A stretch of 64,000 nt of DNA from Nicotiana tabacum (taxonomy: Eukaryota; Streptophyta; Magnoliopsida; Solanales; Solanaceae): positions 66,570,697 to 66,634,696 of the forward strand of contig NC_134089.1 in assembly GCF_000715075.1 (NCBI RefSeq). Direction: 5' to 3'. Position numbers and translations under genes: made by a program. Numbering within the stretch: position 1 is the stretch's first letter; each line of letters starts with the position of its first letter. The notes below the pieces were generated by a model. That model was not told the origin of the DNA and ran no database searches. It saw only the letters and a list, made by a program, of their open reading frames with translations. Below, piece after piece: positions 4,907 to 61,216 of the stretch.

Positions 4907-5548
4907 ATCATTCTATCACAACCCAAAATCCTAGCATGTCGTGATGGCGCCTAACGTGGTACTAGGCAAGCCGACACCTCAAAATATTTCTAACACTTTA
5001 AAATGAGAAACGAACTATAATAGGTTTAAATAATTAAATCTCTCATAAACTGGATAGAAACTCAAAACTCAAAACGAAAGTTCCCAAAACCTGGGTGTCA
5101 CAGAGTACATGAGCATCTATGCAACACAAGTTTGAAAATGCTGTCTATGAAAAACTAAAACTAAATACATAAAGCTGAAAGATAGGGAAGGAGAGTCAAG
5201 GTCTGCGAACGCCGGGCATCTACCTTGAAATCCCTAAATGATCAACCAGCTCAGATAATCAACGCCCACTGTGTCCGGAAACACCTAGATCTGCACATGA
5301 AGTGCAGGGTCTAGCGTGAGTACAACTAACTTAGTAAGTAACAAGGCTAACTATTGAACTAAAAGTAGTGATAAGCTTCACAAATAAAGTTCAATTATAG
5401 AAAATACAATACAGAAAAATAGGCATGCTTTCAAGTTCGACTGTTAAAGCCAAAATAGTTAATTCATGTCAAGTTCAATTGAAACATGATATAGTATCTC
5501 TCAGAAACTAAACGACAGTGATATATACCGGTTATATATTAATGACAA

Positions 5549-5763
5549 GAGGGGTTGCTCTGATGGTAAGGAACCTCCACTTCCAACCAAGAGGTTGTGA
5601 GTTCGAGTCACCCCAATAGAAATATGGGGAGTTCTTGAAGGGAAGGATGCCGAGGGTCTATTTGGAAACAACCTCTCTACCCCAGGGTAGGGGTAAGGTA
5701 TGCGTACACACTACCCTCCCCAGAACCCACTAGTGAGATTATACTGGGTTGTTGTTGTTGTTG
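5549..5763 (+). mobile_element. TS-type SINE (tRNA-derived)
   Basis: The start has a tRNA-like pol III promoter: an A-box-like stretch in GGTTGCTCTGATGGTAAG and a B-box-like stretch in GGTTGTGAGTTCGAGTC. The body continues with GGAAGGATGCCGAGGGTC and CTACCCCAGGGTAGGGG, and the tail is (GTT/TTG)n. This is the layout of the TS SINE family of tobacco and other Solanaceae. A clean target-site duplication could not be defined. It lies inside the minus-strand LTR and is read on the plus strand. Confidence 0.9.
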
Positions 5764-5901
5764 TAGTAGTGATGAAATCAAGTGCATATTCTCAGAGTAA
5801 CAGTCACCAAGTCCTCCCATTCACTCCAACCTCACAGTCACTCATTTCTCACAGTCTCTCATTTCTCCCAATCGCTCGACACTCGTACTCAGTAGGTACC
5901 T

Positions 5902-5952
5902 GCACTCACTGAGGGTAAGCAGACTCCGGAGAGGCTCCTTCAGCCCAAGCGC
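5902..5952 (-). other. Cloverleaf-like inverted-repeat block in LTR
   Basis: Read on the minus strand it has a closing stem (GCGCT with AGTGC, one wobble), arm 1 GGGCT/AGCCT, arm 2 CTCC/GGAG and arm 3 CTG/CAG. It corresponds to the blocks at 15313, 28394, 29774, 41669 and 49590. Confidence 0.5.
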
Positions 5953-7024
5953 TATAATCAACCAATCAAGGAATTCATCAATAAAACATGCTGCAGGGCG
6001 CAACCCCATCTCATAAATATCCTCACATTCAGGCCCTCGGTCTCACTTAGTTATCAATCTCTCCAGCCTCTCGAGCTCTCAAAAATCATGATAATCAGCC
6101 TAAGCGATGATATAATGTATCAATAAAGAACAACAAAGACTGAGATATAATATGCAAGTTAAAAATATGACTGAGTACAAAATGGCAATTTAACAAATAA
6201 TTCAACACGTGACACGACCTCTATGGGTCCTTACAGTACTAGCCCATAGCCTAAACATGATTTATAACATGATTTGCAGCTTAATTTCTATAGCACATAG
6301 AAAATATACGGATAACAATAGATATTTCAACTATACAGTTCCATGGAATTGACCAAGTCAAAATTCCTATGTTGCACGCCCACACGCCCGTCATCTAGCT
6401 TATGCGTCACCTCAACGCCTATCACATAACACGTAATATGGGGTTTTATGCCCTCAGAACAAAATTTAGAAATGTTACTTACCTCAAACCGTGCAAATCC
6501 CTACTCCAACACGCCCTTGCCTCGCCAATCGGCCTTCAAATGCCTTGAATCTAGCTACAAATAGTTCGATACAATCAATACGAGCTAAAGAAATTAATTA
6601 CATAAGAAAATACTAAGTTGACTCAATTTACCAAAAGTTGACTAAAAAATCGGCCCTCGGGCCCACGTCTCAAAATCTGATAAAAGTCATAAAATATGAA
6701 GGCTCATTCAACCACGAGTCCAACCTTACCAAATTTACCAAAATCCAACACCAAATCAACACCCAAATTCCTAATTTAAACTCTCCAAATTCCTAGCCTC
6801 AACACCCGAAATTACACCTCAAACCCACATAATCTAGGTGGAAAAATCAATGGGGAAATATAATTATTGAATAAATTTAACCACAAGTGACTTACCTCAA
6901 GAAAATTGTCTAAAATTCTCCCAAAAATCGCCTAATCCCGAGATTGGAATGTTCAAAATTAAGAAAATTACGGAACCCTCCAATTTAAGGTTCTGTCCAG
7001 CCTTTTCGCTCCCCCAAAAACTTA

Positions 7025-15312: not shown

Positions 15313-15364
15313 GCGCTTGGGCCATAAGGGGCCCCTCTTGGAGTCTATACACTCCAGTGAGCGC
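15313..15364 (+). other. Cloverleaf-like inverted-repeat block in LTR
   Basis: Closing stem GCGCT/AGCGC, arm 1 GGGCC/GGCCC with loop ATAAG, arm 2 CTC/GAG, and a weak third arm (CT/AG). It is flanked by GAG-loop hairpins: GCCAT-GAG-ATGGC at 15292-15304 and GCCC-GAG-GGGC at 15391-15401. Confidence 0.5.
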
Positions 15365-15653: not shown

Positions 15654-15685
<32 letters not shown>

Positions 15686-18124: not shown

Positions 18125-18360
18125 GCTGTTGCAGGCTCAGCGTGGCCGCGGCCGTTTCCACGCGGTCCGCGTTGGCAGCCACGCGGCCGCAGTGCTTTTC
18201 TATGCGGTCCGCGTGGTGGGGGTTCAGAGGGTCGGTAGCCAGGTCGACCAGCGCGGCCGCGTACCAAATCAGTACGGTCCGCCCTGGGTGGGTTCAGAGA
18301 GCCCACCTCTTCCCTCCCTCGGCGCAGCCGCAGTGCATTTCTGCACGGTCCGCGCCAGTC
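18125..18360 (+). repeat. GCGGCCGC/GCGGTCCGC word array in LTR U3
   Basis: Words such as CGCGGTCCGCGTTGG, ACGCGGCCGCAGTG and GCACGGTCCGCGCC recur at short intervals and end just before the TATA-like site. The position matches the arrays of other subfamilies, but the word is different. Confidence 0.75.
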
Positions 18361-18367
18361 CCCAACA

Positions 18368-18377
18368 TATATATAAA
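18368..18377 (+). promoter_or_regulatory. Putative LTR TATA box
   Basis: TATATATAAA follows directly on the CpG word array; the 3' LTR has the same site at about 26410. Confidence 0.5.
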
Positions 18378-19348: not shown

Positions 19349-19560
19349 TATGGGATCGTGTGGCACGCCGTCCACTTTTATATATGATATTATGGGATCG
19401 TGTGGCACGCCGTCCACTTTTATATGATATTATGGGATCATGTGGCACGCCGTCCACTTATATAAGATATTATGGGATCGTGTGGCACGCCGTCCACTTT
19501 TATATATGATATTATGGGATCGTGTGGCACGTCGTCCACTTTTATATATATGATATTATG
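19349..19560 (+). repeat. Tandem repeat, five copies of about 42 bp
   Basis: The unit contains ATTATGGGATCGTGTGG and CACGCCGTCCACTT with a TATATA tail. The 3' LTR keeps about two and a half copies before a long AT microsatellite. Confidence 0.9.
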
Positions 19561-20233
19561 GGATATCATGGGAACCGGAGTTTCTTTTGATTATTTCTGA
19601 TATTTCATTTTTATCTGTTACTCCCCGATAGCATGTCCCCTCCTAGATTTACTTTGTATTATCTTGTTATTGTTTTCTTGCACTTGTATATATATCTGTA
19701 CAGGTTAATTATGGTAGGTCCTGTTTAGCCTCGTCACTACTTCGCCGGAGTTAGGCCAGGCACTTACCAGCACATGGGGTCGGTTGTGCTGATGCTACAC
19801 TCTGTGCATTTTTGTGCACAGCTCAGGAAGCAGCTTACAAACCATAGCAGTAGGACTTCGGGGAGCTATTTTCAGTCCAGGGACTCTCGAGGTAGCCTAG
19901 CTGGCATTCGCAGGCCGAAGCCCCTTTCCATGTTTTTCGTTTGTTCATCTTGTATCCGACAAACATGGTGTATTTCCTTTCAGACATTGTTTGTAGTATT
20001 CTGTAGTAGTCCGTGAGCTAGTGACACCAGACCTTAGGTAGTGATGTGTATTAAACTTCCGCACTTTTGGTTTTCAGTTGCTTTAGATTTAAAGTCTTCC
20101 GCTTAAATTTTGTCTCGTTTATTATATTGTTTGGAAGAAAGCAGGAAAGGTGTTTTAAATATTTGGCTTGCCTAGTTCCAATAGTAGGCGCCATCACGAC
20201 ACCCGATGGTGGGAAATCCGGGTCGTGACAAGT

Positions 20234-25396: not shown

Positions 25397-26134
25397 GTTG
25401 TTTTAGAGGTGGAGAATGTGACGACCCAAAGGGTCATCACCGTAGTTCTTCCTTGTTCCGTGCTTCCGAGGCCTTGAAAACCTCGCTTTTAGTTGCCTCG
25501 ATTTGCATGCGCAGTTCGGGCGCGTAGCCGGAAAGTTTTTATGTTAGAATATGTGAATTTTGTGAAAAATTTGATGGATTTTGATATTAATATGCATAAT
25601 ATTGACTTCGGTCAACATTTTGGGTAAACGGATTCGGACCTATGATTCAACGGCCCCGGAGGGTCCGTAGAAAAATATGGGACTTGGGCGTGTGCCCGGA
25701 ATTAAATTCCGAGGTCCCAAGCCCGAGAAATGAAATTTTGTGGGAAATTGTCTTCTGAAATTAATTAAGGAAAATGAAGAAGGAAATTGATCAGAAAACT
25801 ATGGTATCGGGCTCGTAATTTGGTTCCGACGCTCGGTACGAGTCTTAAATATGTTTTAAGCACTATCTGTAAAGTTTGGCTAAAAACGGACGTCATATGA
25901 CGTGTTTCGGACTTAAAATGGGGAATTTGAGTTTTATAAAAGTTGAAAGAAAATCATGTTTTTTGAGGCTTGATTCTATGTATATGATGTTATTTTGGCA
26001 ATTTGATCGCACAAATGAGACCGTAAAATGAATTTAAGATCATATGTATGTTTGGTTTGGAGCCCCGAGGGCTCGAGTGAGTTTTGAGTGGGGCCCGGGA
26101 GGCCTTAGACTTAAAAAAAATGCAGGTTCAGCTA

Positions 26135-26400
26135 TTGCAGGCCCAGCGCGGCCATTTCCGCTCGGTTCGCGCTGGCAGCCACGCGGCCGCAGTGCTTTTT
26201 TGTTCGGTCCGCGTGGTGGGGGTTCAGAGGGTCGGTAGCCTGGTCGACCAGCGCGGCCTCGCACCAAATCAGTGTGGTCCACGCTGGGTGGGTTCAAAGA
26301 GCCCACCTCTTCCCTCCCTCAGCGCGGCCGCGGTACATTTCTGTGCGGTCCGCGCTGGCAGCCACGCAGCCGCGGTGCATTTCTGCACGATCCGCGCCAG
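26135..26400 (+). repeat. GCGGCCGC/GCGGTCCGC word array in LTR U3
   Basis: The counterpart of 18125-18360 in the 3' LTR. It has one extra word cluster (about 26345-26380) and several point changes, so the array length differs between the two LTRs of one element. Confidence 0.75.
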
Positions 26401-26409
26401 CCCCCAGAA

Positions 26410-26420
26410 TATATATAAAT
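26410..26420 (+). promoter_or_regulatory. Putative LTR TATA box
   Basis: TATATATAAAT directly after the word array, matching the 5' LTR site. Confidence 0.5.
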
Positions 26421-27485
26421 TCGGGATTTTCAGTCTTTTTATCCACTTTTCAAAAATCCAAAACCTAAGAGGCGATTTTCCAAATAACCTTTCTTCTCCA
26501 AAATGATTGGTAAGTGATTTCTAACTTAATTTCTTTATTCCTTGACATCTTTTAACCTGATCTCAAATTCAAATCAAAGATTTTCATGGGGGAAATTGGG
26601 TGTTTTGGGTAGAACCTAGGTTTTCTACAAATTGAGAAGTTGGACCTCAATTTGAGGTATGATTTCAAAACAAATCATATATTTGGATTCATGGGAGAAT
26701 GGGTAGCCGGGTTTTGGTCCGAACCTCGAGTTTCGACCACGTGGGTCCGGGGGGGTGTTTTTGACCATTTTGGGAAAAACCTAGTAAAACTTATTTTTCA
26801 TGCATGGGGAGTGATTCATTTAGTAATTATTAATGTGATTAAGTAACTTATGACTAGATTCGAGCGGATTGGTGGTGGAATCAAGAGGTAAAGCTATACT
26901 AGAAGCGTGAGTTGAGTTTGGAGCATTCGAGGTAAGTGTTTGCTCTAACTTTGGCTTGAGGGAATAGGATTAGGATGTTATTTGCTACTTGCTAATGTGG
27001 AGTACGGTGTATAGGCATGGTGACGGTTATCTATGCACCGGAGTCTAGCATGACCGTGAGTCTTAATTGCTTTTAATTCGAATAGCGTGACACAATCTCC
27101 TTGTTTATTTGATGAGTTTCATATAATGTGAACGGTTGAGGTAATATTGTGATTGGTGTACTTTTGGAGCGTTAGCTCGAACATGAATGTGTTAGTTGAG
27201 GAAGAAGGGATTTTAAAAAGAGAATGATTTGTGATTACTCCCTTGCCGGGATGTGTAGACCGATATATATACTCTCCCTTGTCGGGATATTTTGGGCTGT
27301 TAGTTGTACCCTTGTCGGGTTAGAGTGATATGTTGTTGATTTCCCCTAATGGGACTCTCCTTACAAAATCAGATGTTTCGAATTATATTATGGGATCGTG
27401 TGGCACGCCGTCCACTTTTATATATGATATTATGGGATCGTGTGGCACGCCGTCCACTTTTATATATGATATTATGGTATCGTGT

Positions 27486-27644
<159 letters not shown>

Positions 27645-28276
27645 CGATATTTCATTTTTATCTGTTACTCCCCGATAGCATGTCCCCTCCTAGCTTTACT
27701 TTGTATTATCTTGTTATTGTTTTCTTGCACTTGTATATATATCTGTACAGGTTAATTGTGGTAGGTCCTGTCTAGCCTCGTCACTACTTCGCCGGGGTTA
27801 GGCCAGGCACTTACCAGCACATGGGGTCGGTTGTGCTGATGCTACACTCTATGCATTTTTGTGCACAGATCAGGGAGCATCTTACGGACCACAGCAATAG
27901 GACTTCTGGGAGCTATTTTCAGTCCAGGGACTCTCGAGGTAGCCTAGCTGGCGTTCGCAGGTCGAAGCCCTTTTCCATGTTTTTCGTTTGTTCATCTTGT
28001 ATCCGACAAACATGATGTATTTCCTTTCAGACATTGTTTGTAGTATTCTGTAGTAGTCCGTGAGCTAGTGACACCAGACCTTGGGTAGTGATATGTATTA
28101 AACTTCCGCACTTTTGGTTTTCAGTTGCTTTAGATTTAAAGTCTTCCGCTTAAATTTTGTCTCATTTATTATATTTTTGGAAGAAAGCAGGAAAGGTGTT
28201 TTAAATATTTGGCTTGCCTAGTTCCGATAGTAGGTGCCATCACGACACCCGATGGTGGGAAATCCAGATCGTGACA

Positions 28277-29010
28277 AAAGTAAATACATAAAGGCTCGCC
28301 CCTCGGGCACAATATCCACAAATCCGCCTCTTGAGAAACATCTCAGAATAGTACCAGCCTCTCGGACTCAATCTCACATCACAATGGATACTTGCGCTCA
28401 CTGGGGGTGTACAAACTCCTGGAGGGGCCCCTTACGACCCAAGCGCAATATCAAGCCACCTCGTGGCATCATCACTAGGCCCTCGGCCTCATATCAATCA
28501 AGCCACCTCGTGGCGTACATATCTCAGGCCCTCGGCCTCATAATCAGTATCAAATGTTTCCTCACAACATAGGCCCTCGGCCTTACTCAGTCAAAAATCC
28601 TCACAAGCCACTCGGCCAGTAGTAAAACATGTTTCTCAGCCCAAATATCATTTAAAAGATCATGTAAGTGTTAAAACAGAGTAAACATGGCTGAGTACGA
28701 AAAACAGTAAAATATAACATGACTGAGTTCAAGTATAAAGTCAAAACAGTGAGAGAATACCGGTAAAAATCCCGAAGGGTTCAAATAGTTGGCACAAGGC
28801 CCAAATATGGCATTCAGCCCAAATAATGATGATAACAAATAGATTTCAGTCAAATACGCGATAAAAATCATCAATCGGGACGGACCAAGTCACAATCCCA
28901 ATAGTGCACGACCTCACGCTCATCATCAAGTGTGTGCCTCACCTCAACATAGCACTACGATGTGCAAATCCAGGGTTTCAAACCCTTAGAGCATTATTTA
29001 CAATCATTAT
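28277..29010 (-). repeat. Middle piece of the minus solo LTR
   Basis: It continues the LTR broken at 17412 and starts with the TSD copy AAAGT. It carries GAG-loop hairpins in antisense (for example AGGCCCTCGGCC and GCCACCTCGTGGC) and a cloverleaf-like block (28394-28446). It ends at CAATCATTAT before the second nested LTR. Confidence 0.9.
28394..28446 (-). other. Cloverleaf-like inverted-repeat block in LTR
   Basis: On the minus strand: closing stem GCGCT/AGCGC, arm 1 GGGTC/GGCCC (one wobble) with loop GTAAG, arm 2 CTCC-A-GGAG, arm 3 TTG/CAG (one wobble). Confidence 0.5.
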
Positions 29011-29689
29011 TGTCACGACCCCAACCCCGGCCGTGATGGCGCCCAACACAATGCTAGGCAAGCCCGACCAACTAACATCTCACAATCTCTTTCTTTATAA
29101 TTCAATACCAATTTTCGATATTTAATACCAATTTAATATAAATAGAAGTATGAATTTAACAGATGAAATGTGCGGAAACCATAATCACGAAACATTTCTG
29201 TAAAACAGTCCACTGATCCGGTGTCACAAGTCTGAGCCTCTAATACAAGGTTTCAACAATCTAATACAGAAATATGCCTAAAATGCGGAATAATAAGTGG
29301 AGATAGAAGGAGAAATCGGGTCTGCGAACGCCATGCAGCTACCTCGATAACTCTGATGAAAACAGAACGGCAGGAAAGTTCGCTCTATGCCTCAGGAATA
29401 CCTGTACCTGCACACATGGTGCAGGGAGTAATGTGAGTACTCCGACCCAGTGAGTAATAACAATAAATAATGGCTGACAGTATGAAATCACGTAAAGGCA
29501 CTAAGCAGTTCTATATCAAAACAGTAAAATCATTTAAACATCAGTGAATAAGGAAATCATGTGAAATTCTTTTAACCAGGTAAAATAGATATAATCAGTA
29601 TAAATCAGCTCCTCAAGCATTTTAGTTCATCTATTCGTTCTTATCCTCAGTTCTCAATTCATATACTTCTCACGATAACCGAGTCAATA

Positions 29690-29950
29690 AATATATATAT
29701 ATCGCTGCGGCGTGCAGCCCGATCCGTATATCGCTGTGGCGTACAGCCCAATCCATAATAATAATAGTCGATTGCGCTCACTGGGGGTGTGCAGACTCCG
29801 GAGGGGCTCCTTCAGCCCAAGCGCTTTATAATTGATGCGGCGTGCAACCCGATCCATATAAGTAGTTGTTGCGGCGTGCAGCCCGATCCATAATGTATAT
29901 AATATATATATATATATATCTGCTGCGGCGCGCAACCCGATCCATATCAT
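29690..29950 (-). repeat. Tandem GCGGCGTGCAGCCCGATCC repeats
   Basis: About five copies of a word like CTGCGGCGTGCAGCCCGATC, separated by AT-rich or unrelated spacers. On the minus strand it reads GGATCGGGCTGCACGCCGC, related to the GGGATCGTGTGGCACGCCG unit of element B. Confidence 0.8.
29774..29824 (-). other. Cloverleaf-like inverted-repeat block in LTR
   Basis: On the minus strand: closing stem GCGCT/AGCGC, arm 1 GGGCT/AGCCC with loop GAAGG, arm 2 CTCC/GGAG, arm 3 CTG/CAG. Arm 1 differs from other copies on both sides (GGGCC/GGCCC elsewhere). Confidence 0.5.
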
Positions 29951-30908
29951 ATAAAATATCCTCACTATTGGGTCCTCGACCCCTCTCAGTCACTTAAGAA
30001 ACACAGCCTCTCGGGCATAATGTACGGTCGGGATCTCGGCCCTCATATCTCTTCCTATTTATGGTTAACATTTCAAAATTTTGGTTCATATCATTCTTAA
30101 ACAATTGGAAACATGACTGAGGATATAAATTCTTTAACAAAGTAAGTGAGGAAAACCAGTCAAAAATCCCCTAAGGGTTCTACAGGTCGGCACAAGGCCC
30201 CAAGCATGGCAACAAGCCCAATTCACAACAATAAAGTATATGTCTCAATCAAAAATGTAGTAAAATATCATTCGGGATGGACCAAGTCCCAATCCCCATA
30301 GCATTGAACCTCACGCTCGTCACACACCGTGTATCCCAACTTAGTATAGCACTACGTTGTGCAAATCCGGGGTTTCAAACCCTCAGGACATCATTTAAAA
30401 TCATTACTCACCTCAAATTGGCCAAAACTCAAGCTCGATATGCCCTTGCCTCTCAAATTGGCCTCCACGCTCATCGAATCTATCCAAAATCAGAACGAAT
30501 AGGTCACAATATGCTAAGGGAACAAAGCCCAAGCGAAAACATTCGAAAAAATATCAAAATCTCGAAATTAGCAAAACCCGAGCCCCGGGCCCACGTCTCG
30601 GAATCGGGTAAAATTTACATTTTCAGAATCCTCATACCCTCACGAGTTTAACCATACCAAAATTATCCAATTCCGATACCATTTGGTCCTTCAAATCATC
30701 ATTTTACATTTTTGAAAGGTTCCACAATTTTATTCCCAAATTCCATCTCAAATCACGAATTAAATGATGAATTCAGTGATAGATTCATGTATTCTAGCCA
30801 AATCTGAGTTAAAATCACTTACCCCGATGAATTTCTTGAAAAACCTTCGATAAATCACCAAACTTCGAGCTCTCTAGGTCAAAATATTAAATAAAATCCA
30901 AAACCTCG

Positions 30909-39641: not shown

Positions 39642-40309
39642 TGTGGCGACCCGGTCAGTCGTCTCATGAGTTACCGCTTCGTTTTTCCCATTTCTGCTTC
39701 TTTATGCTTTGTTTATCCGTGTTATATAGTATCGGGTTGGTCGGATCGAATCTGGAATGATTTTGGTAAGGTTTGAAACACTTAGTCTCTTTTAAGGAAG
39801 TTTAAGTTGGAAAAGTCAAACGGATGTTGACTTATGTGTTAGAGGGCTCGGATGTGAGTTCTGATGTTTCGGTTAGCTTCGAGAGGTGATTTGGGACTTA
39901 GGAGCGCGATCGGAATGAGTTTTGGAGGTTTGGAGTAGATTTAGGCTTGAATTGGTGAAGTTGATATTTTGGCGATTTCCAGTTGATAGGCAGGATTTTG
40001 ATATAGGGATCGAAATGGAATTCCAGGAGTTGTAGCAGTTTCGTTGTGTCATTTGGGATGTGTGTGCAAAATTTTATATCATTTGGACGTGGTTTGGTTG
40101 GATTTTTTATCAAAAGCGGAATTTGGAAGATTTTAGAAAATTTGGCTTGAATCCGATGTGTTTTGGTTTATTTGATGTTGTTTGAGGTATTTTGAAGATT
40201 GGTACAAGTTTGAATAAGGTATTAGGATATGTTTGTGTTTTTGGTTGAGGTCCCCGAGGCCTCGGGATGATTTCGGATGGTTAACGGAGAAGTTTAGACT
40301 TTATTGCAG

Positions 40310-40575
40310 ATGCCGAATTTGTTGCCTCTGGTATTTCTGCACTTGCGGATTGAGGACCGCAGGTGCGGTGCCGCATAAGCAGAGGAATTGATCGCAGAAG
40401 CGAAAATGGCCTGATGAGCAGCGACCGCAGAAGCGGCTAAGGTGACGTCGCAGATGCGGAAGTTTGATCGCAGATGCAATATGCCGGATAAGTGATTTCC
40501 GTAGAAGCAGATGAAGAACCACAAATGCGGTACGACAGAAGTGGTTAAAGAGCCGCAGATGCAAAAATGTTTGGG
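40310..40575 (+). repeat. GCAGATGCGG/GCAGAAGCGG word array in LTR U3
   Basis: Words such as CGCAGATGCGG, CGCAGAAGCGG and CGCATAAGCAG recur every 15-25 bp, directly upstream of the TATA box. Confidence 0.75.
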
Positions 40576-40582
40576 CAGAAGG

Positions 40583-40589
40583 TATAAAT
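40583..40589 (+). promoter_or_regulatory. Putative LTR TATA box
   Basis: TATAAAT in AGAAGGTATAAATTGTAGCC, conserved in the 3' LTR at 48507. Confidence 0.55.
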
Positions 40590-41668
40590 TGTAGCCTTCG
40601 CAAATTTTAGCTAATTTCAACATTTTTTATCTCGGCTTGAGAGCTTTATGGACGATTTGAAAGAGAGATTTCAAGGGAACTTCATTGAGGTAAGGAATTT
40701 GGACCTAAAACTCGTTCCTATGCTATTATTACACGGATTAGAGCTAGAAATCATGGAAATTAAGGGTGAAAATTGGGGAAACTAGGGCTGGGAAACTTAG
40801 ACCTTTAATTAGGTATTTGAAGGACCATTTGGGGTCGGATTTGAGAACTTTTGATATGTATGAACTCGTGGGGAGATAAGGAATCTATTGATGTAAAAAT
40901 TATTGAATTCCGAGACGTGGGCCCAAGGGTCGGGTTTTGGTAATTTTGGGAATTGTGTCGTATTTTGATTATTTTCGATTGAGCTTCGTTCCCTTAGCAT
41001 ATTTTGACGTCCTCGTTCTGATTTTGGATAGATTCGACGCGAGTGGAGGCCGATTTGAGGGGCAAAAGCATCGCAAGCTAGAGATTTGACCGGTTTGAGG
41101 TGAGTAATGATTGTAAATGATGTTCTAAGGGTTTGAAACCCCGGATTTTCACATCGTAGTGCAATATTGAGGTGAGACACATGCTTGATGACGAGCGTGG
41201 TGTCGTGCACTGTTGGGGATTATATCTTAGTCCATCCCGAATGACTATTTTACTGTGTATTTGACTGAAACCTATTTGCTATCATCATGATTTGGGTTGA
41301 ATGCCATATTTGGGCCTTGTGCCAACTATTTGAACCCTTCGGGGATTTTTACTGGTATTTCCTCACTGTTTTGACTTTATACTTGAACTCATTCATGTTA
41401 AATTTCACTGTTTTTCGTACTAAGCCATGTTTACTCTATTTTAACACTAACATGATCTTTTAAATGATATTTTAGGCTAAGAAACATGTTTTACTACTGC
41501 CCGAGTGGCTTGTGAGGATTTTGACTGAGTAAGGCCGAGGGCCTATGTTGTGAGGAAATATTTGATACTGATTATGAGGCCAAGGGCCTGAGATGTGTAC
41601 GCCACGAGGTAGCTTGATTGATATGAGGTCGGGGGCCTAGTGATGATGCCACGAGGTGGCTTGATATT

Positions 41669-41721
41669 GCGCTTGGGCTGTAAGGGGCCCCTCTAGGAGT
41701 CTGTACATCCCCAGTGAGCGC
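41669..41721 (+). other. Cloverleaf-like inverted-repeat block in LTR
   Basis: Closing stem GCGCT/AGCGC, arm 1 GGGCT/GGCCC (one wobble) with loop GTAAG, arm 2 CTCT/GGAG (one wobble), arm 3 CTG/CAG. It is embedded among GAG-loop hairpins: GGCC-GAG-GGCC at 41533-41543, GCCAC-GAG-GTGGC near 41648, and GCCC-GAG-GGGC at 41748-41758. Confidence 0.55.
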
Positions 41722-42460
41722 GGGTACCCATTGTGATGTGAGATTGAGCCCGAGGGGCTGGTATTGTTCTATGTGATTTCCCGAGGGGCTGGTACTATTC
41801 TGAGATGTTGCCCGAGGGGCGAACCTTTATGTGTTTATTTTTCATAATTGATTGTCAACTAACTACTTAATCATTGAAAAGGCTTTTCATGAAACTACAT
41901 TTGAGTTAAAGAATTTTACCTATCTTTCACTAATTTACTATTTTTAAGTGGTTTTACTGCTTCATTATAGATGTTTTGTGCCTTACGTGATTTCTTGCTT
42001 TCAGTCTTTATTTACATTTGTTACTCACTGAGTTGGAGTACTCACTTTACTCCCTCCACCCCTGTGTGTAGATTCAGGCGTTGTGAATCCTGCCAGTGCA
42101 GGTTGAGAGCTCCCGGCAAATATCGGAGTCCACGAGGTAGCTGCTTGATGTCCGCAGTCCCATGTTTCTCCCTCTTTATCATTTTTATCTCTTATCAGAC
42201 ATTTGTAGCAGTTTGTAAACTCTTCAGACTTGTATTAGGTTTTATAGATGCTCATGACTAGTGACACCCCGATATCGGGCTATGTTGGGTTATTTTCTGT
42301 GAATTATGCTATTATTTGTTAACTTTGGATTATTTTATCATGCTTTAGATTTATTTCTTATGGTTTAACTATTAATGATTGGATATGGGAAGTGTCGGCT
42401 GGCCTTGTCTTTACGAGAGGCGCCATCACGATCGGGTTCGGGTTTAGGGTCGTGACAAGT

Positions 42461-42477
42461 TGGTATCAGAGCCTAGG
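42461..42477 (+). other. Primer-binding site of element C (initiator Met tRNA)
   Basis: TGGTATCAGAGCCTAGG, three bases after the LTR. The first 12 bases match the complement of the plant initiator tRNA-Met 3' end exactly. Confidence 0.9.
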
Positions 42478-44110: not shown

Positions 44111-47100
44111 CTATGCACTTCCAGGCATACCCGATGCTATTGCTTTAGATGTTGTTATTACAGGTATTGTTTCAGTCTGCCACAGAGATGCCTCTGTATT
44201 ATTTGATCCGGTTCCACCTTTTCTTATGTGTCATCATACTTGCTTGTTATTTGGGTGCGCCCTATGAGTTTTTTGTTTCACCTGTTCATGTATCTAGCCC
44301 GGTGGGCGATACTATTTTTGTAGACCGTATGTACCGGTCATGTGTGGTGACTATTGGTGGTCTGGAGACCTGTGTGGATCTTTAAATTTTTGTGTATGGT
44401 GGATTTCGACATCATTTTAGGCATAGATTGGCTATCTCCATATCGTGCTATTCTGGACTGTCATGCTAAGACAGTCACATTGGCTATACCGGGTGTGCCA
44501 CGGATCGAGTGGCGAGGTATGACTGATTATGTTCCTAGTAGAGTGATCTCATTCTTGAAAGCCCAGCATATGGTTGGGAAGGGTTGTCTTTCGTATCTAG
44601 CCTATGTGAGGGATGTCGGTTCTGAGACTCCCAGTATTGATTCTATTCCAGTTGTGAGGGATTTTCCTGATGTGTTTCTTGCAGACCTGTTGGGCATGCC
44701 ACCGGACAGGGATATCGATTTTGATATTGACCTAGTGTTGGCACTCAACCCATTTCTATTCCGTCGTATCGTATGGCACCAGCGGAGTTGAAGGAATTAA
44801 AGGAGAAGCTTCAGGAACTCCTTGATAAAGGGTTCATTCGGCCTAGTGTGTCACCTTGGGGTGTGCCAGTTCTATTTTTAAAGAAGAAGGATGGCACTAT
44901 GAGAATGTGCATTGATTATAGGAAATTGAACAAAGTAACAATTAAGAACAAGTATCATTTGCCTCGCATTGATGATTTATTCGTCCTGTTTCAGGGATCG
45001 AGAGTGTTCTCCAAGATTGATCTCTATTCAGGTTATCACCAGTTGAAGATCAGGGACTCGGATATTCTCAAAACCGCTTTCAGGACCAGATATGGTCATT
45101 ACGAGTTCTTGGTGATGTCTTTTGGGCTGACTAATGCCCCAGCAACGTTCATGCATTTGATGAACAACGTGTTCTGGCCTTATCTTGACTCGTTTGTCAT
45201 AGTCTTCATTGATGACATTCTGGTATATTTGCGTAGTCAGGAGGAGCACGCGGAGCATTTTAGAGTTGTGTTGTAGAGATTGAGAGAGGAGAAGCTTTAT
45301 GCAAAATTCTCCAAGTGTGAGTTGTGGCTCAGTTCAGTGGCTTTCTTGGGGCACGTGGTGTCCAGTGAGAGTATTCAGGTTGATCCGAAGAAGATAGAGG
45401 CGTTTCAGAGTTGGCCCAGACCGTCATCAGCCATAGAGATTCGCAGCTTTCTTGGTTTAGCGGGTTATTATCGTCGTTTTGTTCAGGGATTCTCATCTAT
45501 CACATCGCCCTTGACCAAGTTGACTCAGAAGGGTGCTTCATTTGTATGGTCGGATGAGTGTGAGGAGAGATTTCAGAAGCTCAAGACAGCTTTGACCACA
45601 ACTCCAGTGTTAGTTTTGCCATCAGTTTCAGGTTCATTTACCATGTATTGTGATGCTTCGAGAGTTAGCATTGGTTGTGTTTTGAAGAAGGAGGGTAGAG
45701 TTATTGCTTATGCTTCTCGTCAGTTGAAGCCCCATGAGAAGAACTACCCCGTTCATGATCTAGAGTTGGTTTCCATAGTTCACGCGTTAAAGATTTGGAG
45801 ACATTACTAGTATGGTGTGTCTTGTGAGGTATTTATTGATTATCGTAGCCTCCAGCACTTATTCAAATAGAAGGATCTTAATTTGAGGCAGCGGAGATGG
45901 TTGGAGTTGCTTAAGGATTATGATATCACTATATTGTACCATTCGAGAAAGGCCAATATGGTGGCCGATGCTTTAAACCGAAAGGCGGTGAGTATGGGGA
46001 GTTTTGCATATATTCCAGTTATGGAGAGACCTCTTGCAGTTGATGTTCAGGCCTTGGCCAATCGGTTCATGTGGTTGGATATTTCGGAGCCCAGCCGGGT
46101 ATTGGCTTGTGTGGTTTCTCAGTTTTCCTTATATGATCGCATCAGAGAGCGCCAGTATGATGATCCGCATTTGCTTGCCTTAAGGACAGAGTTCAGCATA
46201 ATGATGCCAGAGATGTGACCATTGGTGATGATGGGGTGTTGAGGATGCAGGGACGGATTTGTATGCCCAATGTGGATGGGCTTCAGGAGTTGATCCTTGA
46301 AGAGGCCCATAACTCACGGTATTCCATTCATCCGAGTGCCGCAAAGATGTATTAGGATTTGAGGTAGCACTATTGGTGGAGAAGAATGAAGAAAGATATT
46401 GTGGGATTTGTGGCTAGGTATATCAATTGTCAACAGGTGAAATACGAGCATCAGAGACCGGGTGGCTTGCTTCAGCGGATAGATATTCCAGGGTGGAAGT
46501 GGGAGAGGATCACTATGGACTTTGTTGTTGGACTTCCATATACTTTGAGAAAGTTCGATGCTATTTGGGTGATTGTGGATCGACTGACCAAGTTCGTGCA
46601 CTTCATTCCTGTTTGTACTACTTATTCTTCAGAGCGGTTGGTAGAGATCTATATCTGGGAGATTGTTCGTTTGCATGGTGTCCCAGTTTCCATCATTTCA
46701 TATAGGGGCACTCAGTTTACTTCGCAGTTTTGGAGGTTTGTCCAGCGAGAGTTAGGTACTCAGGTTGAGTTGAGCATAGCTTTTCACCCTCAGATGAACG
46801 AGCAGTCCGAGCGCACTATTCAGATATTGGAGGACATGTTGCGTGCTTATGTCATTGATTTCGGAGGGTCATGGGATCAGTTTCTACCGCTTGTGGAGTT
46901 TGCTTATAACAACAGCTACCAGTCGAGTATTCAGATGGATCCATATAAGGCTTTGTATGGGAGGCAGTGTAGATCTCCAGTTAGATTGTTCGAGCCCAGT
47001 GAGGCTAGGCTATTGGGGATAGACTTGGTGCAAAATGCCTTAGACAAGGCAAAGGTGATTCAGGAGAGGCTTCGTACAGCGCAGTCGAGGCAAAAGAGTT

Positions 47101-47568
47101 ATGCTGACAAGAAAGTTCGAGATGTGTCCTACATAGTTGGTGAGAAGGTTCTGTTGAAGGTTTCGCCCATGAAGGGTGTTATGAGATTTGGGAAGAAAGG
47201 GAAATTGAGTCCGCAGTTCATTGAGTCTTTTGAGGTGCTTCGAAGGATTGGGGAGGTAGCTTATGAGCTTGCTTTGCCACCCAGCTTGTCTAATGTGCAT
47301 CCGATATTCCATGTTTCTATGTTCTGGAAGTATATTGGGGATCCATCTCATGTTTTGGATTTCAGCACGGTTCAGTTGGATGATGATTTGACCTATGACG
47401 TGGAGCCAGTAGCTATTTTGGGTCGTCAGGTTCGAAAGTTGAGGCCAAAGGATATAGCTTCAGGGAAAGTGCAGTGGAGAGGTCGGCCCATGGAGGAGGC
47501 TACCTAGGAGACCGAATGGGAGATGCGGAGCAGATATCCTCACCTGTTTGAGGCTTCAAGTATGTTTC
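44111..47568 (+). pseudogene. Pol of element C (PR-RT-RNase H-IN-chromodomain), broken
   Basis: Protease: VLFDP is followed by a one-base deletion at about 44211 in the active-site DPGST codons; ILGIDWL follows in another frame. [27 protein letters not shown] and FIDDIL (about 45205). RNase [28 protein letters not shown]. Integrase: CQQVKYEHQRPG, ERITMDFVVGLP with the first Asp, ISYRGTQFTS where the second Asp codon has become Tyr (46701-46703), and SERTIQ with the Glu. A chromodomain follows (YDVEPVAILGRQVRKL). Stops lie at 45274, 45808, 45868, 46353, 46365 and 47505. Frameshifts lie near 44760 and 46190. Confidence 0.93.
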
Positions 47569-47610: not shown

Positions 47611-48234
47611 TGTGACGACCCGGTCAGTCGTCTCATGAGTTACCGCTTCGTTTTCCCCATTTCTGCTTCTTTATGCTTTGTTTATCCGTGTTATGAGGTA
47701 TCGGGTTCGTCGGATAGAATCCGAAATGATTTTGGTAAGGTTTGAGATACTTAGTCTCTTTTAAGGAAGTTTAAGTTGGAAAAGTCAACCGGATGTTGAC
47801 TTATGTGTTAGAGGTCTCAGATGTGAGTTCCGATGTTTCGGTTAGCTTCAGGAGGTGATTTGGGACTTAGGAGCATGATCGGAATGAGTTTTGGAGGTTT
47901 GGAGTAGATTTAGGCTTGAATTGGCGAAGTTGATATTTTGGCGATTTCCGGTTGGTAGGCGGGATTTTGATATAGGGGTCGGAATGGAATTCTAAGAGTT
48001 GCAGTAGTTCCGTTGTATCATTTGGGACGTGTGAGCAAAATTTCAGGTCATTCGGACGTGGTTTGGTTGGGTTTTTGATCAAAAGCGGAGGAATTTGGTT
48101 TTGAAGATTGGTACAAGTTTGAATAAGATATTAGGATGTATTTGTGTTTTTGGTTGAGGTCCCGGGGGCCTCGGGATGATTTCGAATGGTTAACAAAGAA
48201 GCTTGGACTTTGTTGCAGCTGCCGAATTTGCTGC

Positions 48235-48490
48235 TTCTGGTATTTCCGCACCTGCGGATTAGGGAACGCAGGTGCGGCGCCGCATAAGTGGAGGAATTGA
48301 ACGCAGAAGCAAAAATGGCCTGATGAGCAGCGACCGCATAAGCGGCTAAGGCGACCGCATCTGCGATATCGCAGATGCGGAAGTGTGATCGCAGATGCAA
48401 TATTTGGCCGAATAAGTGATTTCCGCAGAAGCGGATGAAGAACCAAAAATGCGGTACTGCAGAAGCGGTTAAAGAGCCGCAGATGCGAAA
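48235..48490 (+). repeat. GCAGATGCGG/GCAGAAGCGG word array in LTR U3
   Basis: Counterpart of 40310-40575. It contains an extra CGACCGCATCTGCGATATCGC stretch (first 20 bases shown in part: CGACCGCATCTGCGATATC), so array content differs between the two LTRs. Confidence 0.7.
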
Positions 48491-48506
48491 ATGTTTGGGG
48501 AGAAGG

Positions 48507-48513
48507 TATAAAT
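48507..48513 (+). promoter_or_regulatory. Putative LTR TATA box
   Basis: TATAAAT directly after the word array, as in the 5' LTR. Confidence 0.55.
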
Positions 48514-49589
48514 TGTAGCCTTCGCGAATTTTAGCTAATTTCACCATTTTTATCTTGGCTTGGGAGCTTTTTGGACGATTTGAAAGAGGGATTTCAAGGG
48601 AACTTCATTGAGGTAAGAAATTTGGACCTAAAACTCGTTCCTATGCTATTATTACACGGATTAGAGCTAGAAATCATGGAAATTAAGGGTGAAAATTGGG
48701 GAAACTAGCGCTTGAAAACTTAGACCTTTAATTGGGGATTTGAAGGACCATTTGGGGTCGGATTTGAGAACTTTGATATGTATGAACTTGTGGTCCGATA
48801 AGGAATCTATTGATGTAAAAATTATTGAATTTCGAGACGTGGGCCCAGGGTCGGGTTTTGGTAATTTCGGGAATTATGTCGTAGTTTGATTATTTTCGCT
48901 TGGGCTTCGTTCCCTTAGCATATTTTGACTTCCTCATTCTGATTTTGGATAGATTCGATACGAGTGGAGGCCAATTCGAAAGGCAAAGGCATCGCGAACT
49001 AGAGATTTGACCGATTCGAGGTGAGTAATGATTGTAAATGATATTCTGAGGGTTTAGAACCCCAGATTTGCACATCGTAGTGCTATATTGAGGTGAGGCA
49101 CATGCTTGATGACGAGCGTGGGGTCGTGCACTGTTGGAAATTGTGACTTAGTCCATCCTGAATGACTATTTTATCACGTATTTGACTGAAACCTATTTGC
49201 TATCATCATGATTTGGGCAGAATGCCATATTTTGGCCTTGTGCCAACTATTTGAACCCTTCGGGGATTTTTACTGGTATTTCCTCACTGTTTTGACTTTA
49301 TACTTGAACTCAGTCATGTTATATTTCACTATTTTTCGTACTCAGCCATGTTTACTCTATTTTAACACTTACATGATCTTTTAAATGATATTTTGGGCTG
49401 AGAAACATGTTTTACTACTGTCCGAGTGGCTTATGAGGATTTTGACTGAGTAAGGCTGAGGTCTTATGTTGTAAGGAAACATTTGATACCGATTATGAGG
49501 TCGAGGGCCTAAGATGTGTACGCCACGAGGTGGCTTGATTGATATGAGGCCGAGGGCCTAGTGATGATGCCACGAGGTGTCTTGATATT

Positions 49590-49642
49590 GCGCTTGGGCC
49601 GTAAGGGGCCCCTCCAGGAGTCTGTACACCCCCAGTGAGCGT
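49590..49642 (+). other. Cloverleaf-like inverted-repeat block in LTR
   Basis: Arm 1 GGGCC/GGCCC with loop GTAAG, arm 2 CTCC-A-GGAG, arm 3 CTG/CAG. The closing stem is GCGCT with AGCGT (last pair weakened). Flanking hairpins are GCCAC-GAG-GTGGC (49522-49534), GGCC-GAG-GGCC (49548-49558) and GCCC-GAG-GGGC (49700-49710). Confidence 0.55.
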
Positions 49643-50934
49643 GGGTACCCATTGTGATGTGAGATTGAGCCCGAGGGGCTAGTATTGTTCTATGTGATTG
49701 CCCGAGGGGCTAGTACTGTTCTGAGATGTTGCCCAAGGGGCAGATTTTTTGATATTGTGCCCAAGGGGCGAGCCTTTATGTGTTTATTTTTCATAATTGA
49801 CTGTCAATTACCTGCTTAATCATTGAAAAGGCTTTTCATGAAACTACATTTGAGTTAAAGAATTTTACCTATCTTTCACTGATTTACTGTTTTTAGTGGT
49901 TTTACTACTTCATTATAGATACTTTGTGCCTTACATTATTTTTTTCTTTCAGTCTTTATTTACATTTGTTACTCACTGAGTTGGAGTACTCACTTTACTC
50001 CCTGCACCCCTATGTGCAGATTCAGGCGTTGCGGATCCTGCCAGTGCGAGTTGAGAGCTCCCGACAGATAGAGGAGTTCACGAGCTTGCTGCTTGATGTC
50101 CGCAGTCCCGTGTTTCTCCCTCTTTATCATATCTATCTCTAATCAGACATTTGTAATAGTTTGTAAACTCTTCAGACTTGTATTAGGTTTTATAGATCCT
50201 CGTGACTAGTAACACCCTGGTATCGGGCTGTGTTGAGTTATTTTCCGCGAATTATGCTATTATTTGTTAATTTTGGATTATCTCATCATGTTTTAGATTT
50301 ATTTCTTATGGTTTAATTGTTAATGATTGGATATGGGAAGTGTCGGCTGGACTTGTCTTCACGAGAGGCGTCATCATGACCGGGTTCGGGTTTAGGGTCG
50401 TGACATGTCTACATGCCTTGAGGATTCATGCAAAGGCTCCCCCAAAATATTCTTGTCAGCCAACTTGGCGCAAGCAAAGATAACTGGTGATTCTCTCTGA
50501 CAGACAAATTGCTCAAAAAGCAGGAAGTCATTCCAGATATCGGAAAAGGTCACCTAAGAAAATATCTCTAGTTGGTATGAGGATGATTGAGCCACACATA
50601 CAAATAGTACTGGGTGTGAAACAATTAGGGTTGATGCAGAGAAAAAGAAACCGACTCCAGCTGATTGAGCAGAAGCCAAGCTGCCCATGACTCAAGGCCA
50701 CAGACCGACCACCATTTTCAAAACTAACAAATTTTTCTTTGTGTAAAACAGCAACAAATCAGTGCAAGGAAAGTGGTTCAAAAAAAAAGAAAAAAAATAA
50801 CAAAAAAAAAAATAAGACAAAGAAAAGAAGAGAAGAGCCAACAAAGGGAAGTTTCTCAAATCTTTGCCTTTATTTGTCTTGCTATTGTGCATTAAATCTT
50901 GCCATTGATCTTTCCATTTTTTCCTCTTAGGAAA

Positions 50935-51471
50935 GTCCTAGTCTGATGGATTTTCCTCCCAATAGAAATCTTAGTCTAATGAATTTTTCTCCTAAGATAG
51001 AAGACCTAGTCTGATAAACTTTCTCCTAGGATCAAAATCTTAGTCTGGTGAATTTTTCTCCTAAGATAGAAGACCTAGTCTGATGAACTTTCTCCTAGGA
51101 TAGAAATCTTAGTCTGATGAATCTTTCCCCTAAGATACTGAAAAAATGGACCTAGTCTGATGAATTTTCTCCTATGATCAAAATATTAGTCTGATGAATC
51201 TTTCTCCTAAGATAAGAAACCTAGTCTGATGAATCTTTCTCCTTGGATAGAAATCTTAGTCTGATGAATCTTTCTCCTAAGATAACAAATAAAACCCTAG
51301 TCTGATGAATCTTTCTCCTAGGATAGAAATCTTAGTCTAATGAATCTTTCTTCTAAGATACCAACAAAAAAAAGACCTAGTCTGATGAACTTTCTCCTAG
51401 GATCAAAATCTTAGTCTCATGAATCTTTTCCTAAGATAGAAAACCTAGTCCGATGAATATTATCCTAGGAT
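50935..51471 (+). repeat. Minisatellite of 15 alternating A and B monomers
   Basis: Monomer A has the form CCTAGTCTGATGAACTTTCT then CCTAGGAT; monomer B has CTTAGTCTGATGAATCTTTC then TCCTAAGAT. The two strictly alternate (eight A, seven B). In 11 of 15 monomers the first five bases are the perfect complement of the closing five: CCTAG/CTAGG in A, CTTAG/CTAAG in B. Confidence 0.9.
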
Positions 51472-51529
51472 AATAATTAAAAAAGGGTCAATTTTTAGTT
51501 TTCTTAAGTTATCAATCTTTAGTTGTCTT

Positions 51530-52475: not shown

Positions 52476-54604
52476 TGTGAGCACCTAAATTTTGACTATT
52501 CTTGAATTTCTTACCACTTTCTAGTATTTATATAGTTTTAAGTTAAATCTTTATACTTTAACTTTTGTTTCACATTTTTATAGGTTTTGCTTAAGAAAAT
52601 TGGAAATAATAAAAATGAGCCACATTTTTTTAGAATAAGTTTTGTCTTCATTTTAAAAAAAAAAAGAAGAAAAGAATAAGAAGAAAAGTTTCCAAAAATA
52701 TATGTTTTTAATCTAGAGATTTGAAGTGATTAATATTTTACCTTGCTTTTTTTAATTTATTTATTTAATAGAAATAGATTCTATTTATTATCCTTTAAAA
52801 GAAAATCAAAAAAGAATAAGAAGAATTTAGAGCCAATGGAAAATCACACACTTGCAAGAAGGATTTTCGCAATTTTGCTACAAGAATTTTGCATAGTAAC
52901 AAGAATAAGATTTTTTTTTTTCAATTTCGGTTGACTCCTCACGTGATTAACCCTTTCTTGCCCCCTAATTCACACACCTTATACCATCTAATACACACAC
53001 ATCATATAACACCTGACCCATATAGCACCTAGAGCAGGAGACTTAGAAACCTTTCTTTTCAAAAAATTTCCAGCGGCCGCAACTTCTTTTTTGGAGAGCT
53101 TAGTTTCTTTTTCCTCGATCCTAAAAAATACAGCAACGACCAGTCTTTCCTCCACCATAAATCAGCTATTAGAGTCCAAAAAATTGTCAAAAAATAGCAC
53201 CCCAAATACCATATTCTTCCCTCTATTTCCAACCATGTAGAACTCCAAAAACATAGCCACTTTCAGCTGAAATTTCTCACCATAATCCAGCAAAAACACA
53301 GTTGAAATTTTTCAAAAACGCAACTGAACCAACTCTGAAAAATCCCATTAAAAACACTGTAAAACAGTCTCCTTTTTCCATAAAATAGTAGCACTCTTAT
53401 GCCGGGTTTAGCGTCGAGGTCGTATGTGTAGTTTCGATATCGGGTCGGCAAGGTCAGTCGAGTTTTCTGTTCGAGCTCCGGCAGAAGTCCTTTGTTTCTT
53501 TCAAGTTTTAGATGTCGCTCTCATTCGAACAATACATTTGTCGTACAACTTTACGCAAAGATTTTATTGTTCAATCAAAATCTTTGGCTTTGGCTCTATT
53601 TTGAGGTTCTCGTCTTAGTTTGTCTCTTTTTTTTCATTATCAGTCTATATTGCTTTATTGGATTTTTGTTTAGTTATTTTGAGTTGATTTTTATTGATTC
53701 TACATAGTCTTCGATTAATCTTAATTTCAAACGGACGTTTAAGTGTACGTGTGCGAAGTCCAGGCTTTAATTAGTATGTATTGTCCTTCGTCTTATTTTA
53801 TTGTTATTCCATATCTTTGAAATTTTGATAGCTTTCGTAAAAAAAAAGAGTGAGCTATTAAATGGTTTTGAGTAAATAAGTTTGTTAATGGAAGTTGAGA
53901 TCTATTTGATTTCAATTTGATTTTTATCTTTCAGATGTAGTTGAATCTCGCTAATTTACTTGTTTGTTAACAGAGGATATATATTTATTCATAATCTAGC
54001 CCCTCTTCAATAATTATGAACATGACAACATGCTTATAACGTTATTAATTAATCAAATCATTGTGATTGTGTATACGTTCGCGTAATATAATTATGATTT
54101 TTCTAAAAATAAATCGATGTATGCATTCGCGCAACTTCGGCCAAATTTTCTTAATAATAATAAAGCGTGATGAATTGTGGATACGTACGCATGACATGAT
54201 TCTTGACGTGCCAAAAGAAATGAGTACACGTACGCGTGACTCGTTTCAGGTCATAATTAAAATAGGTAAGAGGTAAAAATGCACATAGGTTTAAAAATAA
54301 GTAATTAAACTATTTAATTAAGCCAAGTAAGATTAGAGTGGCCATGCTAAAATCACGAAACCCGAAAATTCCTAACACCTTCTCCCGGGTTAACAGAATT
54401 CCTTACCCAGATTTTTGTGTTCGCAGACCATAAATAAGAGTCAACTTCCTCGATTCGGGATTTTAAACTGGTGACTTGGGATACCATAAGTTATCCCAAG
54501 TGGTGACTCTGAATTTGAATAAATAATCCTGTTTCGGTTATTGTCACTTAAATTGGAAAAACTCCTTTATACCCTTCCGGGTGTAGTAAAAACAAGGTGT
54601 GATA
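52476..54604 (+). repeat. 3' LTR of the pol-less Tat/Ogre-like element
   Basis: 2129 bp without insertions. It supplies the empty-site sequence for the solo LTR at 16793. It also has a segment (about 53888-53970) not found in the 5' copy at the matching place (33655), so one of the two LTRs carries an indel. It ends TGTGATA, a change from TGTGACA, followed by the TSD TTATG. Confidence 0.93.
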
Positions 54605-60446: not shown

Positions 60447-61208
60447 AACAAAATAAGCATATAGCCTAAACAAGATTTCTAACATGGATTACCGCTCAAT
60501 TTCTCTAACATGTGGAGATTACATGAATAACAACAAGATTGGGTAACTACATAGTTCCACAGAAACAACTGAGTCATAATTACTACGGTGCAAGCCCACA
60601 CGCCCTCCACCTAGCATGTGCATCACCTCAACATCAACTACATAACACGTAGTTCGGGGATTCATACCCTCAGTATCAAGTTTAGAAGTGTTACTTACCT
60701 CAAAAATCACACAAATCCCTACTCCAACAAGCCCTAATTGCCTCGCAAATCGGCCTCTGAATGACTCGAATCTAGCCACAAGCAACTTAATACAATCAAT
60801 AAAAACTATAGGAGTTAATTCCATTCGATAAAGCTAAGTTCTTTAATCAAAGCCAAAAAATCCAAAAAGTCAACCCCGGGCCCACGTATCTGAATCCAAC
60901 AAAATTTAAAAAATCCGAACACACATTTATTAAAGAGGTCAACCATACCAAAATTACTCAATTTTGATCTCCACTCGACCTTCAAATCCTCAAATTATGG
61001 TCTATGAAGTTTCACAATTTTTCCCCAATTTTTCCAACCCAAAACACTAATTAAATGGTAAAAACAATGATAGATTCATGTATAACAACCAAAACCGAAT
61101 TAGAATCACTTACCCCAATCAACTCCTTGACAATACCTTCAAGAATCTCCCAAATCTGAGGTCACTAGCTCAAAATACAAAAAATGGGTTCAAACTCTCG
61201 ATTTGAAA

Positions 61209-61216
61209 TTTTTATA
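61209..61216 (-). promoter_or_regulatory. Putative LTR TATA box
   Basis: TATAAAAA on the minus strand, beside the word array at 61240-61580. Confidence 0.5.

Follow-up and report, generated by a model that had tools for sequence, protein, structure and literature searches.

The short palindromic motif arrays of Sirevirus LTRs, the RM boxes (Bousios 2010, PMC2829016), are the nearest known kind of sequence to the arrays that we describe here. In the excerpted text of that paper, RM boxes, like the present arrays, occur in plant LTRs as numerous palindromes whose arms vary from unit to unit, and are common to diverged elements. Sireviruses, however, are Copia elements whose units have a CGG-CCG core and lie upstream of the TATA box, whereas the present units have a constant loop and lie downstream of the TATA box in Gypsy-type LTRs; neither the Copia host nor the upstream position was thus found for them. 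The same excerpts mention no 53-nt block or splice-like borders. Plant LTR elements are generally without introns, according to excerpts of a 2025 review (PMC12786077), and the spliced plant retrotransposons named there and in PMC3735527 (also in excerpt) are BARE1, Ogre, CRR, Bagy2 and EVADE. The introns of BARE1, Ogre and CRR lie in or between coding regions, and the excerpts of these two sources mention no intron lying wholly within an LTR. Plant Gypsy LTRs were left unmodelled in a survey of LTRs owing to their length variation (PMC3601003, in excerpt), and the titles and abstract openings that our searches of open-licence PMC literature listed describe neither the block reported here nor, for the Gypsy elements of plants, a leader intron within an LTR.

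We analyzed a 64-kb stretch of DNA (hereafter, the window), in which the initial annotation had placed six copies of a block of about 53 nt. A blastn search recovered these six as the only full-length copies, all other matches being 10-16 nt long with E≥1.1. Two forward-strand copies belong to one element at 39.6-50.4 kb, the first in its 5' LTR (41669..41721) and the second in its 3' LTR (49590..49642; blastn match up to 49641). A third forward copy (15313..15364) lies in an LTR that, by blastn, is broken downstream by another insertion. The remaining three are on the reverse strand, at 28394..28446 in a truncated LTR (blastn), at 29774..29824 in a diverged LTR, and at 5902..5952 in the most diverged LTR among the six. 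A 1.3-kb insertion is present twice in the window (15472-16793 and 52476-53797, 93.5% identical), and one of its copies is what breaks the LTR around the 15313 block.

The element at 39.6-50.4 kb has a pair of LTRs with TG...CA ends on the forward strand, the 5' LTR (TGTGGCGACCC...GGGTCGTGACA) at about 39642..42457 and the 3' LTR at about 47611..50405, both delimited by blastn and LTR comparison. Beside the 5' LTR, the sequence shows a primer binding site, TGGTATCAGAGC (42461..42472, forward strand), which we take to be of the initiator tRNA-Met type. A reverse transcriptase domain (RVT_1, 44731-45276) is followed by an integrase region (46368-47507), in which SH3_Tf2-1 scored over the cut-off and rve and H2C2 under it. 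Because reverse transcriptase precedes integrase, we consider the element to be of Gypsy type; its place in the Tekay/Del chromovirus lineage is only presumed. That lineage has a chromodomain at the C-terminus of integrase, and Pfam gave none at E≤1 for three pieces of this region, which are broken and end at stops. A second element in the window, element B, has the Ty3/Gypsy order PR-RT-RNaseH-INT (RVP_2 21913-22641, RVT_1/RNaseH 22738-23694, Integrase_H2C2 23695-24345), and blastn found no block in its LTRs (about 17413-20231 and 25417-28277), as the annotation had noted. An ORF across the block gave no match in a protein search, and searches of viral contigs with two element proteins found no relative. 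The window also holds a Copia-type element fragment (2971-4712, reverse strand) with an SH3_retrovirus domain, a weak rve match and an RT-like ORF recognized by eye.

A TATAAA box at 40583..40588 (forward strand), with a matching box in the 3' LTR at 48507, is 1086 nt upstream of the 41669 block, and the LTR ends 736 nt downstream of the block. Based on the position of the box, the LTR from about 40.6 kb to its end should be transcribed and the block should therefore be in the predicted leader, in line with the earlier estimate of about 1 kb past the TATA box. A related TATA box is also found in an LTR near 61 kb.

The block is abundant in the host genome far beyond chance. Exact matches to the pattern GCGCTTGGGN{28,40}CAGTGAGYGC numbered 16,023 in 3,996 Mb (8,042 and 7,981 on the two strands), as opposed to 0 for the reversed pattern used as a control. 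In a sample of twenty 10-kb pieces evenly spaced along a single contig (C6; 200 kb), both blastn (E≤0.01) and nhmmer found nine copies, a density of ~45 per Mb that pertains to this one contig; if C6 is typical, there would be on the order of 180,000 copies genome-wide, most of them too decayed for the exact pattern. Due to this abundance, the block can serve as a sensitive tag for its LTR group. The pattern also matched at 2 loci of viral contigs and at 45 of prokaryote genomes, which we put down to chance, because the only blastn similarity to the block at these 47 loci was one 13-nt match with E=0.45.

We compared the block with its flanks at 46 loci: 32 of 100 copies from contig C1, which were the first matches listed, all from one contig and chosen by both block ends, together with the six window copies and eight of the nine C6 copies. 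Over the 1035 pairs, mean identity was 0.846 for the block, 0.53-0.59 for four 50-nt flank windows and 0.488 for shuffled sequence. Since 32 of the 46 loci were picked by their block ends, the informative part is the pairs with unlike flanks. In 386 of the 1035 pairs all four flank windows were at or below the shuffled 97.5th percentile (0.561), whereas the block averaged 0.841 with a minimum of 0.632, bearing out the claim that LTR surroundings are far more diverged than the block. Between unlike LTRs in the window, identity was 88.7% over the block (53 nt) versus 74-77% for other matches of at least 39 nt, and in a second comparison 79.7% (69 nt) versus 66-78%; some short LTR matches (16-24 nt, E 0.28-0.99) exceed the block in identity. 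Among the free columns (16 of each kind), conservation is 0.874 at unpaired and 0.885 at paired positions, and this similarity suggests that it is the sequence that is recognized. Another conserved island, TGACTGAGTRAGGCCGAGGGCCT..GTGAGGA, lies upstream of the block at 41472-41565 in the window and in several related loci (partly by eye), and is 69% identical to the 5.9-kb LTR.

Sites resembling splice borders flank the block. We checked 21 of the 46 loci for them (10 of 32 from C1, five of six from the window and six of eight from the C6 sample); the other 25 had no usable longer flank. Comparison of unlike LTRs revealed a donor-like island upstream of the block, GAG/GTRAGTAA (a slash marks the splice-like border). 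The donor-like 9-mer [GA]AGGT[AG]AGT occurs in 17 of the 21 upstream 600-nt pieces (it is missing from L098, L085, L079 and L074) and in none of the 21 on the other strand, compared to a mean of 0.21 and a maximum of 3 in 200 shuffles. Downstream of the block is an acceptor-like island, CTGCAC-N4-7-GTGCAG/ATNCAGG, found with no more than 4 mismatches in 18 positions at 15 of the 21 loci versus 1.4% of 420 shuffled trials; only this null comparison counts, because the consensus was derived from the same loci. The AG itself is lost in two of these 15 loci (L094 and L058). As for the six misses, a matching site is at the edge of the piece in L096, L095 and L074 are cut off within the island, the 15313 LTR is broken by the insertion, and L085 and L075 have none. 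In many copies the acceptor-like island (50003-50019 in the window) also makes up an inverted repeat, CTGCAC-N5-GTGCAG.

Conserved donor-like and acceptor-like sites are thus found in the order of a spliceosomal intron. The donor-like site is 386-608 nt before the block and the acceptor-like site roughly 320-610 nt after it, delimiting roughly 1 kb of sequence, which we refer to as the candidate leader intron. By the positions of its splice-like sites, it extends over 41100..42071 (forward strand; GAG/GTGAGTAAT ... CCTGTGTGTAG/ATTCAGG) in the 5' LTR and 49021..50019 (forward) in the 3' LTR, with counterparts in the diverged LTR (29408..30411, reverse) and in the 5.9-kb LTR (5291..6482, reverse). 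In a pattern search of the window, element B had neither splice-like site. Four of the nine donor-like sites in the window are without a block (11121 on the forward strand, and 31998, 60701 and 63140 on the reverse), as is an acceptor-like site at 54844 (forward), and the 28394 block has neither site; all this is in part because LTRs at these places are truncated. One LTR at 60461-61216 (reverse strand) has a TATA box (61216) and a donor-like site (60701) with no block downstream by nhmmer. No joined, intron-less copy was found in 319 kb of sequence. In plants, the U content of introns is higher than that of the exons (PMC3735527, in excerpt). This was not seen for the candidate intron: T content is 0.33 upstream, 0.36 within and 0.37 downstream, with no step at the borders (both LTRs of one element). 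ATGs number 25 in the 977 nt of the intron, 10 in 381 nt downstream and 6 in 486 nt upstream, and are no denser inside than downstream.

Short inverted repeats surround the block. On the forward strand, the 41669 copy is preceded by AGGCC-GAG-GGCCT (41532..41544), AGGCC-AAG-GGCCT (41577..41589) and GCCAC-GAG-GTGGC (41648..41660) and followed by AGCCC-GAG-GGGCT (41747..41759). With a perfect stem of at least 5, including at least 2 G or C, and a loop of 3-8, the flanks of the 46 loci contain 168 such repeats versus 70.2 ± 9.0 after shuffling (maximum 94 in 100 shuffles). Units with a GAG loop account for 68, with 11 different stems (chiefly AGGCC, AGCCC and GCCAC), and cluster near the block in the 5' as well as the 3' LTR of the element at 39.6-50.4 kb; other constant loops with varying stems are TGGATCT (6 units, 3 stems) and ACGCC (13 units, 4 stems). 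When units were anchored on CGAGG and pairing was not required, 61 of 137 paired at all four outer positions, compared to 15.1 with the 3' arms shuffled (maximum 25 in 500 shuffles). The random C6 sample gave 25 fully paired of 390, versus 2.1 shuffled (maximum 7). For CACGCCG-anchored units the excess was not significant (12 of 37 versus 8.5 shuffled, maximum 14). Downstream of the block, L058, L074 and L094 represent a separate LTR family with unit loops TGGATCT or TAGATCT, which have a palindromic core, on stems such as AGGGA, GGACA and TGGAGA; these loops would suit kissing-loop contacts. The C6 pieces L056-L075 (200 kb) contain, over both strands, 48 instances of a unit AGGC/GCCT centred on CAAGG, perhaps as a tandem array, and self-comparison showed a tandem array of related units at 50931-51482 in the window.

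The best explanation that we can offer starts from what is directly seen, namely the conservation of the block, its position, the splice-like sites and the inverted-repeat arrays. We propose, tentatively, that the block is a sequence-recognized cis-element of intron-retaining LTR transcripts, located in the candidate leader intron. It would be a conserved part of the transcribed leader (R/U5) in a very abundant Gypsy-type LTR group of many families. From a transcription start predicted by the TATA box, LTR transcripts may be partly spliced at the candidate intron of ~1 kb. Spliced RNA, minus this stretch, would go to translation, and intron-retaining RNA would keep the block and be the sole kind able to rebuild a complete LTR. 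In LTR replication, reverse transcription can restore the LTR from unspliced RNA only; as splicing would at the same time remove the block, a sequence in the intron is well placed to mark genomic RNA. A putative binding protein, either Gag or a host protein, could read the block by its sequence, perhaps together with its closing stem, and the RNA so sorted would be sent to packaging, dimerization or export. An LTR leader bordered by splice sites around a conserved core would offer a defined cis-element for the question of how plant LTR retrotransposons apportion a single transcript to translation and to replication. We put forward with greater reserve the general form of this proposal, in which a large plant Gypsy group has an LTR leader intron with constant-loop, hairpin-capable arrays and a near-invariant 53-nt core that marks unspliced genomic RNA while the spliced form is translated.

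It is also possible, though doubtful, and on present data nearly as likely as an RNA cis-element, that the block and the palindromic units act in DNA. They would then be protein-binding sites downstream of the promoter, in the capacity of an enhancer, a silencer or a chromatin mark, and the splice-like islands would be incidental or otherwise used. This is consistent with the conserved thing being sequence rather than structure and with the palindromic motif arrays known from Sirevirus LTRs (PMC2829016, in excerpt). Pairing in the sense RNA would be expected to give mismatches within the flanking units with more G-T than A-C, and these show no clear sense-strand bias: by hand sums there are 58 G-T and 83 A-C mismatches when the TGCCC class, whose instances mostly coincide with those of AGCCC, and the outermost AGCCC pair, mostly unpaired, are excluded, and 120 G-T and 97 A-C when everything is counted, with instances shared between classes. 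However, sites that are read by sequence do not usually combine a constant loop with stems that vary between units, the Sirevirus motifs are on the other side of the TATA box, and the donor-like site is confined to one strand (17 of 21 versus 0 of 21).

The donor-like site could function without splicing, by binding U1 snRNP and so suppressing premature polyadenylation in the 5' LTR, with the block as part of a poly(A)-control region. A strong donor-like LTR site in 17 of 21 loci and the precedent of foamy virus (PMC3694450, in excerpt) would fit, but the conserved acceptor-like island and the block are left unexplained, and we regard this possibility as unlikely. We find it improbable, too, that the arrays are functionless by-products, that is, inverted repeats that reverse transcriptase creates and perfects when it switches templates and that recombination between LTRs disseminates. 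By hand calculation, most single changes within unit classes do look independent, and double changes number 2 at ACGCC pair 2 (about 2.5 expected), 1 at AGGCC pair 5 (1.6 expected) and 2 at GCCAC pair 5 (1.4 expected). Yet ACGCC pair 1 has 3 double changes versus 0.4 expected, and the likeness of the block between LTRs with unlike flanks would have no explanation.

Two further readings concern RNA structure and are best judged against the cloverleaf drawn in the initial annotation, a closing stem GCGCT/AGCGC around three arms. The closing stem is present, with a single G-T wobble in the 49590 and 5902 copies, and arm 1 is as described: GGGCC/GGCCC in 49590 and 15313, GGGCT/AGCCC in 29774, and single wobbles in 28394, 41669 and 5902. 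Using family templates, we aligned 114 copies (100 from C1, six from the window and eight from C6), of which 101 are distinct; in 100 of the 114 rows the closing stem is fixed by the search pattern, one C/T position apart, so that the covariation results below bear on the other columns.

A structured antisense strand, whose three-way junction would form either in an antisense transcript or in the minus-strand cDNA that reverse transcription makes, finds some agreement in predicted folds. On this strand, all six family templates fold into the closing stem plus two hairpins, that of arm 1 and another (-20.2 to -25.5 kcal/mol), the pairs of the latter differing in templates d and e; antisense energy is lower than sense in 71 of the 101 copies, and mean pair probability is 0.83 for the closing stem and 0.51 for arm 1. 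Against it, the alternative arm shows no covariation, RNAalifold over the 101 rows is no better than column-permuted controls (0.365), five of the six window copies have energies near those of shuffles, the mismatch counts give no clear strand bias, and no antisense transcript is known. This makes the antisense reading very improbable.

The sense-strand cloverleaf itself, as an RNA kept by selection, fared worse. In its favor are a closing stem with a mean pair probability of 0.92 over the 101 copies, the 15313 copy, which alone folds better than shuffles (z=-2.66 sense, -2.97 antisense), and arm 1 in two of the six family templates, c (0.84) and d (0.94), although it reaches only 0.02-0.24 in the others. 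Arm 1 GGGC/GCCC is also kept in L058 and L093 despite their differing loops (TAGAGA, and a loop with GGATCC, respectively), which is kept sequence and not covariation. The change in arm 1 that had been read as compensatory is indeed two-sided, pair 11-18 being TA in 43 of the 101 copies, CG in 43, TG in 14 and AC in 1. For the most part it reflects a single division of the copies into two large groups, with 6 and 2 parsimony changes in its two columns. We tested covariation with our own code, not R-scape, using a G statistic with APC and 300 simulated alignments in which the parsimony changes were re-placed on a FastTree tree. No pair covaried at E≤0.05 among the 101 distinct copies. Pair 11-18 reached E=3.0, weaker than the non-pairs 15-18 (0.66) and 16-18 (0.77), so that the change, while real, is inseparable from shared descent. 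Mean sense pair probability was 0.25 for arm 1 and 0.03 for both arm 2 and arm 3, 87% of the column-permuted controls were more stable than the RNAalifold consensus of the 101 rows, and the other five window copies had shuffle-like folds (sense z between -1.12 and +0.26; antisense energies near shuffles). The annotation had named lack of covariation and shuffle-like fold energy as results that would count against it, and these are, entirely or nearly so, what we found. It is thus partly supported: the conserved block and its leader position stand, and the cloverleaf is rejected on covariation, common fold, pair probability and shuffled energies, leaving selection for it most unlikely. A tRNA, tRNA-like or known Rfam identity is ruled out, as the 64-kb window had no tRNA call by ARAGORN and no Rfam match at or above the gathering score. 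GC-rich LTR blocks that are read as a cloverleaf need a broad alignment, and the present one is a cautionary case.

The proposed cis-element of intron-retaining transcripts can be compared with systems in which splicing and genome sorting are linked. Retroviral packaging and dimerization signals lie near the major splice donor, as a conserved element of the 5' leader that is kept in unspliced RNA. The block is similarly a conserved 5' leader element downstream of a donor-like site; unlike those signals, it shows no covarying structure and lies in a much longer leader. In foamy virus, an animal virus unlike the present plant elements, the LTR splice donor presumably lies in the R region, and we know of no block of the present kind in it. 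What it shares with the present LTRs is a donor inside the LTR transcript (PMC3694450, in excerpt). Among plants, the spliced retrotransposons have intron-bearing transcripts, as proposed for the candidate leader intron, and BARE, in the excerpted accounts (PMC3735527, PMC12786077), keeps separate RNA pools for translation and replication, much like the scheme suggested here. If our proposal is correct, the block and its leader intron would constitute a plant counterpart of the retroviral arrangement of splice donor and packaging signal, present in at least 16,000 copies, and perhaps more than 100,000 by extrapolation from one contig, in a single genome.
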